Made by a program: the position numbers and the translations under genes. Positions 320-5,820 of a DNA stretch of 64,000 nucleotides are shown here, piece by piece. The DNA is from Methanoregulaceae archaeon UXB-2016 (GTDB lineage Archaea; Halobacteriota; Methanomicrobia; Methanomicrobiales; Methanospirillaceae). The notes below the pieces were generated by a model that was given only the letters and a program-made list of their open reading frames with translations, was not told the origin of the DNA and searched no databases. The stretch covers positions 1 through 64,000 of the forward strand of contig SISS01000040.1 of assembly GCA_004332335.1 (NCBI GenBank), given 5' to 3'. Each line of letters begins with the position of its first letter. Position 1 is the stretch's first letter.

Positions 320-1621
320 ATGGCCCGACTGGACAGTGAACTCGCACATATCAGGGAGATCCTTCAAGAGCACAGGCAGGGAATGTCCGTGACCGAGATT
401 GCGCGCGTGCTCGAGAAGAACAAGCATTCGGTCGGTCGGTACCTCGACGTGCTCCGCGCCTCGGGCCAGGTGGAGATGCGGTTGTTCGGCATGGCCAAGG
501 TCTTCACCCTCGCCAAGCGCCTCCCGATCGCATCCATGCTCTCGATCACGACCGAGCCAATCCTCGTCCTCGACGAGGAGCGGCGGGTGATCGAGGCGAA
601 CGATGCGGCCATCAGCCTGCTCGGGCTCGCACGCGAGCGCGTGCTCGGGCAGCAGCTCCAGCACCTGCCTGTGCCCGACCCCCGTATCCTCGACCTGGTC
701 ACACACCTCGATCAGGCCGCGACCGGGCAGTCGACCTGCGACGAGATCCACCTCGAAGGCGAGGACGAACGTTACTACTGGTGCCGAGTCATCCCCATGG
801 TCTTCGAGCAGGGCGAGCGCGGGACCGTGCTGATCCTCGGGGATATGACCGAACATCGCCGGGCTGAGAAGGCCCTGGCCGAATCGGAGGCCCTCTTCCG
901 CGGCCTGGCCGAGAACGTCCAGGACGGGATCCTGATCGCCAGGGGCGCAGAGTTCGTCTTTGCGAACCGGCGCGCGACGGAGATCCTGGGATACTCGCTG
1001 GAGGAGATCCGCTCGCTCGCGGATCCGCTCGCATTCATCGCCCCCGAGGAGTCCGAGCGTGTACGGCGGGTCTTCGATCTGCACCTCCGCACGGGAGAGG
1101 TCCCGCGCGAGTTCCGGTTCTGGGCGCGGCAGAAAGATGGTGGGGACCGCTACCTCCTTGCGCGCTTCACCATGGTCGAGAGCGAGGGACGGCCGACAAA
1201 GTACATCGTCCTGACCGACCTGACCGAGGGACGGCTTGCCGAGGAGGAGATGAAGAAACAGTCGATCTTTGTCCGCCAGCTCATGAACGAGTTTCCGCAC
1301 CCGATCTACGCGCTCGATCGAAGCGGGGTCTTCGTCGAGTGCAACACCGCCTTCGCCGCAATGGTGGATCGGGACCGGACCGAGATCCTCGGTGCGACTG
1401 TGCCGGACCTGATCCCGACCGAAGACATCGCTGCCTTCACCGCGGCGGACGAAGAAGTCTTCGAGCAGATCGGCGAGCGCATCTACTGTACCACCCTGAA
1501 CTCGAGCAGCGGACCGCACCATGTACTCTTCCGCAAGATGATCCTCCGCGTGGGAGAGGAGGGTGTGCTCGTGCTGGTCGGCGTGATCATCGACCCCCCC
1601 GAGCTTCCCCTGCCCCGCTGA
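320..1621 (+). CDS. HTH and multi-PAS sensor protein
   Basis: The 433-residue protein begins with a winged-helix-like segment (about residues 1-65; MSVTEIARVLEKNKHSVGRYL). Three PAS-type modules follow, near residues 70-185, 190-310 and 320-430. No histidine kinase, receiver or other output domain is visible and there are no membrane segments, so it is probably a cytoplasmic ligand- or redox-sensing transcription regulator of a type common in Methanomicrobiales. The ATG at 320 was chosen because residues encoded further upstream (from TTG 254 or ATG 275) look unlike the family; the ATG at 275 remains possible. The ligand and targets are unknown. Confidence 0.75.
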   Translation: MARLDSELAHIREILQEHRQGMSVTEIARVLEKNKHSVGRYLDVLRASGQVEMRLFGMAKVFTLAKRLPIASMLSITTEPILVLDEERRVIEANDAAISLLGLARERVLGQQLQHLPVPDPRILDLVTHLDQAATGQSTCDEIHLEGEDERYYWCRVIPMVFEQGERGTVLILGDMTEHRRAEKALAESEALFRGLAENVQDGILIARGAEFVFANRRATEILGYSLEEIRSLADPLAFIAPEESERVRRVFDLHLRTGEVPREFRFWARQKDGGDRYLLARFTMVESEGRPTKYIVLTDLTEGRLAEEEMKKQSIFVRQLMNEFPHPIYALDRSGVFVECNTAFAAMVDRDRTEILGATVPDLIPTEDIAAFTAADEEVFEQIGERIYCTTLNSSSGPHHVLFRKMILRVGEEGVLVLVGVIIDPPELPLPR

Positions 1622-1644: not shown

Positions 1645-1690
1645 ATGTATAAATATGTACATTTTACATTAAATGTAAAATATTGTACAA
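1645..1690 (+). promoter_or_regulatory. Promoter with nested palindromes and two TGTACA (TRP-box-like) sites, upstream of the trpE remnant
   Basis: A TATA box (GTATAAATA, 1647-1655) is followed by a perfect 19-nt palindrome TTTTACATTAAATGTAAAA (1662-1680). The hexamer TGTACA flanks it on both sides (1656-1661 and 1684-1689, the latter inside TTGTACAA). Transcription would start about 25 nt past the TATA box, inside the palindrome, which is where a repressor would act. As I recall, TGTACA is the TRP box bound by the tryptophan regulator TrpY in Methanothermobacter. The next gene downstream is a broken trpE, so this looks like the surviving trp promoter/operator. Binding by a TrpY-like protein is inference. 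Confidence 0.65.
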
Positions 1691-1723: not shown

Positions 1724-2150
1724 ATGACCCCGGGAGAGGAGATCTGCCTCAGAGGTTGTCCCAAAACTTCCCTTTGCACCTCATAGGTCTAAGCACGACC
1801 CATTTCATTGATAATCTCGAGGATGTGATCGGTTTTGGGATAACCTCTCAGCGAAAAGACCCTAAGGGAGCTCATCCGGGATATTGACGGACCCGTCTTT
1901 GTCCCCGTCTTCCGGACGCTTCCCCTTGCAGGGCGCTCCCCCCCTGCCTCTACGAGGCCTACCGGGGTCGGACCGGGTTTCCTGGAGTCGGTCGAGGGGC
2001 TCGGGCGGCGGGCACGGTATTCGTTCATCGGCCCCCGGCCCCGCCTCACGGTCGAGCTCCATGAGGACCGGATAGGGGCCCTCGGGCGATCGGGAGGGGG
2101 GCCGACCTCGACCGGCTCAAGCGGCTCACCAGCGCCACAGGGGGTGTGCC
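1724..2150 (+). pseudogene. trpE: trpE (anthranilate synthase component I) 5' remnant, interrupted and truncated
   Basis: An AGGAGG ribosome site at 1712-1717 precedes an ATG at 1724. After eight codons the frame is interrupted by a 94-bp inverted-repeat element. Deleting that element and one copy of the 5-bp repeat CTCAG restores an open frame reading MTPGEEICLSEKTLRELIR, then VFVPVFRTLPLAG, typical of TrpE N-termini. Later TrpE motifs (LYEAYRG, FLESVEG, ARYSFIGPRPRLTVELHEDR, LDRLKRLTSATGGVP) are present but in changing frames, implying at least three further small indels. Homology stops near 2149, about 100 codons into a gene of normally about 450-500 codons, and trpC sequence follows directly. 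The gene cannot be functional. Confidence 0.8.
1753..1846. mobile_element. 94-bp MITE-like inverted-repeat element inside trpE
   Basis: The ends are 15-bp terminal inverted repeats, AGGTTGTCCCAAAAC (1753-1767) and GTTTTGGGATAACCT (1832-1846), which match at 14 of 15 positions when one is reverse-complemented. The element is bracketed by the direct repeat CTCAG (1748-1752 and 1847-1851), a 5-bp target-site duplication. The 64-bp interior is less GC-rich than its surroundings and too short for a transposase. It is therefore a non-autonomous element or a solo deletion derivative of an insertion sequence. I cannot name the parent family. Confidence 0.75.
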
Positions 2151-2754: not shown

Positions 2755-3279
2755 ATGGCGGCGCTCGTCGAGGCCCTCCGCACAGTCCACCCGGACCTGC
2801 ACCCGCTCCCAGCTCCTGCAGTCGTGACGGGCGAGTGGGTCCGGTGGAAGTGCCGGTACGGTTGCCCCCGGTACGGTCGGGGATTCGGCTGCCCGCCGCT
2901 CGCACCGGCGCCCGAAGAGACGCGCCGCCTCCTCGCCGAGTACGGCCTCGCCGTACTCGCTCGTTTTCAACCGGTCCCCGGGCCGATACACGTCCAGCGC
3001 CCCGCCTGGCAGAAGACCGTTGTTGAACTCGAGACCCGGGCCCGCGAGGCGGGCCGCTACCGGGCGCTCGCGTTCGGGTTCTCGCCCTGCACCCTCTGCC
3101 GGCGCTGCGCGGCCGAGGAGGGGGGCACGGCCTGCCGGCATCCCGGCCTGATGCGCCCCTCGATGGAGGCGGTCGGGATCGATGTCTTCGCGACGGTCCG
3201 TGGAGCCGGGCTCACCTGCGAGGTCGCGCCCGACCGCGACTGCCCGCCGGCCCACTACGGCCTCCTGCTCATCGAGTGA
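2755..3279 (+). CDS. DUF2284 predicted metal-binding protein (copy 1)
   Basis: The 174-residue protein has the DUF2284 signature: WVRWKCRYGCPRYGRGFGCPP near residues 26-47, a second Cys cluster PCTLCRRCAAEE with a later C (about 112-128), and the conserved tail MRPSMEAVGIDVFATV. These cysteines probably hold a metal or Fe-S cluster; the biochemical role of the family is not known to me. It starts at ATG 2755 immediately after the trpA remnant and is intact. A paralogue lies at 5185-5820. Confidence 0.8.
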   Translation: MAALVEALRTVHPDLHPLPAPAVVTGEWVRWKCRYGCPRYGRGFGCPPLAPAPEETRRLLAEYGLAVLARFQPVPGPIHVQRPAWQKTVVELETRAREAGRYRALAFGFSPCTLCRRCAAEEGGTACRHPGLMRPSMEAVGIDVFATVRGAGLTCEVAPDRDCPPAHYGLLLIE

Positions 3280-3288
3280 TAGAGGAGA

Positions 3289-3744
3289 TCAGGGAGCGGG
3301 GCCAGCCAGTACAAGCAGGAGCCGGTCCTCGCCGGGGCCGAAGTAATCGGGGAGCCTGATCTCCTCGACGAAGCCGAGCCCTGCGTAGAGCGCCAGCGCC
3401 GGCCGGTTTCCCGGTGCGACGGTCAGCCGGACCTGCTCCACGCCGCCGGCCCGGAGCCGGTCGAGGGCCGCGACCAGGAGCGCCCTCGCACATCCCCGCC
3501 GCCGCTGGTCCTCGCGGACCTTCAGTCTCAGCACCCAGCCGACAGTCGGGTCGGACGAGGCCGCGGCGATCACGAAGCCGGCCGGACCCGCCGCATCCGC
3601 CGCGACGAGAAAGGTCGCGGGATAGAGTGCGGCCGCCTGCCGGACCACGACGGCCGAGGCGTAGCCTCCGACGTCCCTGGCCCGTTCCATCGCCCAGACA
3701 CCGTCGAAGTCCGGGTCTTCGAACGGCCGCACGGTCCATCTCAT
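3289..3744 (-). CDS. GNAT-family N-acetyltransferase
   Basis: Read from ATG 3744, the 151-residue protein carries the GNAT acetyl-CoA-binding motif LRLKVREDQRRRGCARALL (R-R-x-G-x-A type) and the C-terminal motif GNRPALALYAGLGFVEE. It resembles RimI-type transferases, but the substrate (protein N-terminus or small molecule) cannot be read from the sequence. A longer open frame to 3879 exists, but its extra 45 residues do not look like the family and cover an AT-rich promoter-like stretch. It is convergent with the DUF2284 gene. Confidence 0.75.
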   Translation of the reverse strand: MRWTVRPFEDPDFDGVWAMERARDVGGYASAVVVRQAAALYPATFLVAADAAGPAGFVIAAASSDPTVGWVLRLKVREDQRRRGCARALLVAALDRLRAGGVEQVRLTVAPGNRPALALYAGLGFVEEIRLPDYFGPGEDRLLLVLAGPAP

Positions 3745-5184: not shown

Positions 5185-5820
5185 ATGAACCGCGAGGAGG
5201 AGATCCGGGCCCTGACCGGGCTCGCGGCCGATGCCGGCGCCATCGCCGTGCCGATCGCGCCGCAGGACGTGATCGTCGCCGAGTGGGTCCGGTTCAAGTG
5301 CCGGTACGGCTGCAAGGGGTACGCCAAGCACCTCTCGTGCCCGCCGTATGCGCCCACACCGGCCGAGACCCGCGCCATGCTCACCGAGTACGAGACCGCG
5401 CTGCTCGTGCGGTTCGACGGCGTGCCCGGCCGCACCTCGTTCGGGCCGGAGGAGGTCCCCGACGACTTCCACATGTTCTACCGCGATCTGATCATCTGGG
5501 TGAACACGACCGTCCACCGGCTCGAGAAGACCGCGTTCTACGACGGGTTCTACAAGGCCTTCGCGTTCGGCGGATATCCGTGCGCGTTCTGCGAGGAGTG
5601 CGTGGCTGAAGAGCAGCCGGGCTCCGTGGACGAGTCGTACCGCCGGTTCTGCCGAGAGCAAGACCGGGTTCGTCCCTCGATGGAGGCGGCGGGGATGGAC
5701 GTCTTTGCAACGGCCCGGAAGGTCGGGTGGGAGCTCCGGACGATCCCGGTCCCGGACCTCGAGTACGGCCGGATTCTCCGGCCCGACGTCGTCTCGGTCG
5801 GGCTCGTCCTGATCGAGTGA
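5185..5820 (+). CDS. DUF2284 predicted metal-binding protein (copy 2)
   Basis: The 211-residue protein is a longer paralogue of the product of 2755-3279. It has WVRFKCRYGCKGYAKHLSCPP (about residues 33-53), a second cluster CAFCEECVAEE (about 133-143) and MEAAGMDVFATARKVGW. A segment between the clusters (DDFHMFYRDLIIWVNTTVH) is absent from the shorter copy. The role is unknown; the conserved cysteines suggest metal or Fe-S binding. It lies 36 bp after the peroxiredoxin gene and may be co-transcribed with it. Confidence 0.8.
   Translation: MNREEEIRALTGLAADAGAIAVPIAPQDVIVAEWVRFKCRYGCKGYAKHLSCPPYAPTPAETRAMLTEYETALLVRFDGVPGRTSFGPEEVPDDFHMFYRDLIIWVNTTVHRLEKTAFYDGFYKAFAFGGYPCAFCEECVAEEQPGSVDESYRRFCREQDRVRPSMEAAGMDVFATARKVGWELRTIPVPDLEYGRILRPDVVSVGLVLIE

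Follow-up and report, generated by a model that had tools for sequence, protein, structure and literature searches.

A probable TrpY promoter-operator left behind by a decayed trp operon, and an order-wide candidate TrpY regulon in Methanomicrobiales

Tryptophan-sensitive operators that overlap a promoter are familiar from bacterial TrpR, whose protein family, operator sequence and transcription machinery are unrelated to those of the archaeal TrpY system. For TrpY of Methanothermobacter thermautotrophicus we take the TRP-box consensus to be TGTACA, and trpB2 is reportedly a second target of this regulator. A passage of PMC6737238 describes how M. thermautotrophicus TrpY binds TRP boxes in the interval separating trpY from trpE and represses trpEGCFBAD with tryptophan, and cites Xie and Reeve (2005) for the experimental demonstration of TrpY control in Methanobacteriales. 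According to the same source, Tar of Thermococcus kodakarensis (TK0271), which is encoded in the aro operon, is an activator of the aro and trp operons with the site TGGACA-N8-TGTCCA, the TrpY homologue of that species does not control trp, and it is not possible to say what TrpY homologues do beyond the branches that have been tested (PMC6737238). Homology to TrpY by itself is thus insufficient, and it is the conservation of the motif and its linkage to trp genes that carry the argument made below.

We analysed a window, the whole stretch of 64,000 nucleotides, from a 2.37-Mb genome in which mcrA is present, so that the host is a methanogen. The segment at 1646-1689 is very probably an orphaned TrpY promoter-operator, its operon having been lost and the TrpY system presumably still being used for trpB2 and probably for trpP. 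The host resembles M. thermautotrophicus in that its trpE promoter is overlain by TGTACA in a similar position next to the TATA box, in having a TrpY-family regulator with W2, a helix-turn-helix (HTH) and an ACT-like region, and in trpB2 as the putative second target. Unlike M. thermautotrophicus, the host has a trpY that is unlinked rather than divergent from trpE, boxes that step 10 bp across the TATA box, a trp operon that has been destroyed, and a TrpP transporter gene as a likely extra target; its trpY promoter is also without TGTACA, in contrast to the self-regulated trpY genes of Methanobacteriales. With T. kodakarensis Tar the locus has in common a palindromic site close to the promoter by which an archaeon would control its tryptophan genes, whereas the presumed mode of action, the site and the position of the regulator gene differ, and its likeness to TrpR is confined to the putative tryptophan-sensitive operator overlapping the promoter.

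The first-pass annotation of this DNA had placed two copies of TGTACA at 1656-1661 and 1684-1689 and a TATA box ahead of a perfect 19-nt palindrome. Both copies lie exactly there on the plus strand, as TRP boxes 1 and 4, and the TATA box of the former trp operon promoter was found as TATAAATA at 1648-1655 (plus strand), immediately 5' of box 1. The palindrome is indeed perfect but spans 21 nt (1661-1681), with arms ATTTTACATT/AATGTAAAAT around a central A at 1671, and it overlaps the predicted transcription start. It is no separate element: the near-ungapped alignment of same-genus promoters resolves it into two degenerate TRP boxes, box 2 (TTTACA, 1663-1668) and box 3 (TGTAAA, 1674-1679), both on the plus strand. 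A TRP-type box 0 (TGTATA, 1646-1651, plus strand) overlaps the TATA box and forms part of the 16-base core discussed below. In having TGTACA boxes that overlap the trpE promoter, the array at 1646-1689 conforms to a TRP-box operator. Among 20,000 dinucleotide shuffles of positions 1621-1720 (27% GC), two copies of TGTACA arose in 80, a 10-bp palindromic arm in 28 and the pair TGTAYA-N4-TGTACA in 3, and base composition therefore does not account for the paired boxes.

Same-genus relatives (G185, G187, G183 and G186) have the array in common, with box spacings of 7, 11 and 10 wherever boxes are kept, and those with an intact trp operon in the slot align to the palindrome almost gap-free. Boxes 1 to 4 of the window start at offsets 0, 7, 18 and 28 counted from box 1; at these offsets G185 reads TGTACA, TGTACA, TGTACA and CATACA, and the promoter alignment gives TGTACA at offsets 0 and 18 in G183 and at offset 28 in G187.

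Downstream of this promoter the operon has been gutted, and trpE is broken, as the first-pass annotation had it. The 5' end of the trpE remnant runs from the ATG to the insert (1724-1752, plus strand), where a MITE-like element (1753-1846, ~94 bp; terminal inverted repeats AGGTTGTCCCAAAAC/GTTTTGGGATAACCT) is bounded by the target duplications CTCAG at 1748-1752 and 1847-1851. The element is short and without an ORF, and it is present in more than one copy; the second, 99% identical, lies at G000:C12:166648-166744, which marks the insert as a small mobile element with a recent history of movement. Beyond it, tblastn with the proteins of G185 (for trpA, blastn and tblastn) recovered plus-strand pieces of trpE (N-terminal, 1853-2068, 56%), trpD (C-terminal, 2083-2163, 67%), trpC (N-terminal, 2151-2327, 48%), trpB (internal, 2319-2540, 70%) and trpA (C-terminal, 2528-2738). 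The pieces stand in operon order with their middle parts missing, and show frameshifts and large internal deletions; the trpB remnant of 222 bp retains 74 codons without a stop at 70% identity to the intact relative. No other trpE was found in the host genome (assembly 92.7% complete) and a search of it for trpB-related genes recovered trpB2 alone, whereas trpY, trpB2 and trpP are intact despite the decay of the operon.

The gene preceding the promoter, which encodes an HTH and PAS-domain protein (320-1621, plus strand; Pfam and synteny), is the syntenic marker ahead of the trp operon in the genus. G185, G187 and G183 have an intact trp operon in the slot between this gene and an acetyltransferase gene, and in G186 the operon is in the slot, divided over contigs. 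G184 shows a clean loss that includes the operator, the HTH-PAS gene directly adjoining the acetyltransferase gene, and in G117 the operon is also gone at the locus. Within genus g1 the trp operon has been lost repeatedly: one lineage shed it in a clean deletion, and in the genome of the window it decayed step by step.

The array persists beside its gutted operon, and to that extent the operator has outlived the genes it served, as the first-pass annotation supposed, with the qualification that recent loss alone may suffice. Recent loss is the simplest reason for the persistence of the operator, given the 99% identity of the MITE copies and the 70% identity of the trpB remnant. It is conceivable, if rather doubtful, that, with biosynthesis gone, the role of TrpY has shrunk to controlling tryptophan salvage and import through trpB2 and trpP, and that the orphan operator now acts as a TrpY decoy or as a captured, TrpY-regulated promoter of a newly placed DUF2284 gene. 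The specific proposal that the promoter is no relic and has been retained to drive this DUF2284 gene (2755-3279, plus strand; Pfam and tblastn map) under TrpY control appears unlikely. The gene is the first intact same-strand ORF past the promoter, inspection by eye shows nothing TATA-like directly ahead of it, and relatives whose operon is intact lack this copy and have no gene at that spot, all of which would suit a capture; but ~1.07 kb of untranslated pseudogene separates promoter and gene, no tie links DUF2284 to tryptophan, and the recent MITE copy suggests so recent a loss that the operator could have survived without selection. The window contains two DUF2284 genes (2755-3279 and 5185-5820) that are ~41% identical, and where relatives retain the trp operon intact the second alone is present at the locus.

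Conservation of TGTACA before the trpE of relatives had been set beforehand as a check on the assignment, and it is present. The order-wide trpE promoter core is TGTACA-ATAA-TGTATA-AATA-TGTACA, with a 10-bp box step across the TATA box, and the window is identical to the order-wide TGTATAAATATGTACA at 16 of 16 bases. The TATA-box core TACAAYAATGTATAAATATGTACA also precedes the intact trpE of many relatives, and the arrangement of TATA box and TGTACA is kept before intact trpE in several families of the order as well as in the same genus. Where trpE has its own promoter, TGTAYA-N4-TGTACA is matched at at least 11 of 12 positions in 33 of 51 relatives (shuffle mean 0.08). At the same threshold it is found at none of the 30 loci where trpE is placed behind another gene; in the loci read this gene is trpB2, and there the motif precedes trpB2. 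Upstream regions of trpB2 carry it, again at at least 11 of 12 positions, in 30 of the 41 sampled (shuffles 0). In Methanobacteriales, whose reference genomes were reached via a chromosomal gene that borders prophage psiM100, 23 of 31 loci have TGTACA ahead of trpE, mostly between trpE and a divergent trpY. Among the best 30 loci from more distant families of the phylum, where trpE is mostly behind other genes, none has the box pair before trpE.

A separate observation concerns the trpE starts themselves. In the order, 68 of 84 trpE loci (e.g. L021, L024, L028 and L053) have a near-invariant GGTGATGCCGGTGGA(A/C)TGG that overlaps the trpE start and encodes a short ORF, Met-Pro-(Val/Leu)-(Glu/Asp)-Trp, which is found in most relatives and absent from the window. 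Its ATG and TGG are invariant, variation being almost confined to the Pro wobble position, Val/Leu and Glu/Asp. The short ORF may be a tryptophan-codon leader or a translation-level tryptophan sensor, or just extended ribosome-binding context. Many trpE loci of family f5 (L028, L031, L034) are without an in-frame ATG, GTG or TTG start and have a CTG within the leader motif, at the position of the ATG in other families. The Methanobacteriales loci L146-L172 have another short ORF, Met-(Asn/Lys)-(Lys/Arg)-Ser-Glu-(Cys/Tyr)-Phe-Trp, overlapping the GTG start of trpE, in which TTT-TGG-C could permit slippage by +1 to the frame of trpE under a shortage of Trp-tRNA.

No trpY adjoins the window, in line with the first-pass annotation, which had seen no such gene nearby, but the regulator is far from missing: a profile search with TrpY_fam (NCBIfam NF053754) identified a single intact gene in the host genome, unlinked on contig C12 and far from the trp genes. 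The protein scores 209.4 bits against a cut-off of 180, covers model positions 1-163 of 163 and keeps both M1-W2 and the VDRR.V.ATA helix of the HTH. It is 36% identical to a Methanobacteriales TrpY. Across the order TrpY_fam matches were obtained in 116 of 120 genomes, with one full-length copy in nearly all. The presence of this gene, together with the conservation of the boxes at relatives' trpE, supports the earlier suggestion that TrpY-type control extends beyond Methanobacteriales, with TrpY as the presumptive binder of the boxes.

The surroundings of host trpY differ from those in Methanobacteriales. TGTACA was absent from the 14 kb examined around the gene and from the trpY promoter itself, both in the host and in the other trpY upstream regions read (30 in all), and the divergent trpY/trpE layout with shared boxes was not encountered in the host. 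The unlinked position of trpY and its promoter without a perfect box might suggest that the boxes are tryptophan-gene operators bound by a different HTH regulator, TrpY_fam having another role in the order. TrpY_fam is also kept in genomes without trpE, where TrpY may do other work, and the T. kodakarensis TrpY homologue shows no binding to the trp promoter (PMC6737238). We nevertheless regard a different binder as quite improbable, since TrpY is the sole archaeal regulator known to be tied to TRP boxes, TrpY_fam is effectively universal and single-copy in the order with its W2 and HTH region kept, and the same motif adjoins trpY in Methanobacteriales.

The assignment to TrpY is consistent with where else the motif occurs. 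The first-pass annotation had proposed a search for other TGTACA pairs near promoters, and this search yielded a second exact pair at trpB2 and a one-mismatch pair before trpP. The host genome holds just two exact copies of TGTAYA-N4-TGTACA, one at the trpE remnant and the other at the promoter of the intact trpB2, where TGTATATATATGTACA at G000:C24:32242-32257 directly precedes the gene. Copies with one mismatch lie at four further places, one of them before a TrpP-type gene (L279:1641-2165). This degenerate pair (TGAACA/TATACA) is located at G000:C7:13162-13177, ~125 bp before the gene, and TGAACA-N4-TATACA recurs upstream of trpP within the host's family. The identity of the gene rests on an hmmscan of its protein, which passes the Pfam PF17099 cut-off for a tryptophan transporter, the PF17099 genome scan having missed it; the product likely serves tryptophan import in a strain without a trp operon.

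An exact-motif scan of 61 genomes of the order returned 38 distinct sites, of which 14 are at trpE and 6 at trpB2, while trpP-type genes account for about 5, an AMP-binding ligase gene that neighbours trpB2 for 4 and other places for 9, compared with 9 sites for the reversed control pattern in the same genomes, so that the excess falls at tryptophan genes. That the motif is basal promoter context, a TATA box in A/T-rich surroundings and no regulator site, is hardly tenable, for although box 0 and the TATA box overlap and TATA boxes resembling TGTATA are seen at other promoters (e.g. that of trpY), such context would recur at hundreds of promoters, whereas the two exact pairs in the host are both at tryptophan genes and the order-wide excess over the control sits at tryptophan genes as well.

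The ligase sites belong to genus g15 of family f6 (L345, L346, L348 and L349), where exact TGTATA-N4-TGTACA stands before the AMP-binding ligase gene adjoining trpB2; a similar ligase end lies directly before trpP in other relatives. A further TGTACA cluster at G000:C44:11442-11480 was set aside as simple-repeat-like, being a CAGTGTACACAGT array beside a GA repeat. At this place (L090, ~3443-3481) GTGTACAC/CAGT repeats form long palindromes next to the GA-repeat tract.

On the preferred reading of 1646-1689 as an orphaned TrpY promoter-operator, plentiful tryptophan would lead the TrpY-family repressor to bind the row of TRP boxes around the TATA box. Boxes 0 and 1, 10 bp apart, flank the TATA box, so that TrpY bound there should keep TBP away, and boxes 2-4 cover the predicted start site. 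The operon was broken by the MITE insertion, frameshifts and large internal deletions, leaving fragments behind. The unlinked TrpY survives, presumably because the intact trpB2 and probably the TrpP-type transporter gene are still under its control, and, with TrpY still serving these genes, the operator in the window would be a leftover of a control system that remains in use.

A TrpY regulon with an unlinked trpY across a second order is solidly supported; it is wider than first proposed, ordinary in kind, and seems to be undescribed in the literature searched. Archaeal amino-acid regulons are poorly known, and the trpE operon, trpB2 and probably trpP provide a concrete candidate regulon for TrpY in an order distant from Methanobacteriales. 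Genus g1 offers a natural experiment in which operon, operator and regulator are found at differing stages of loss.
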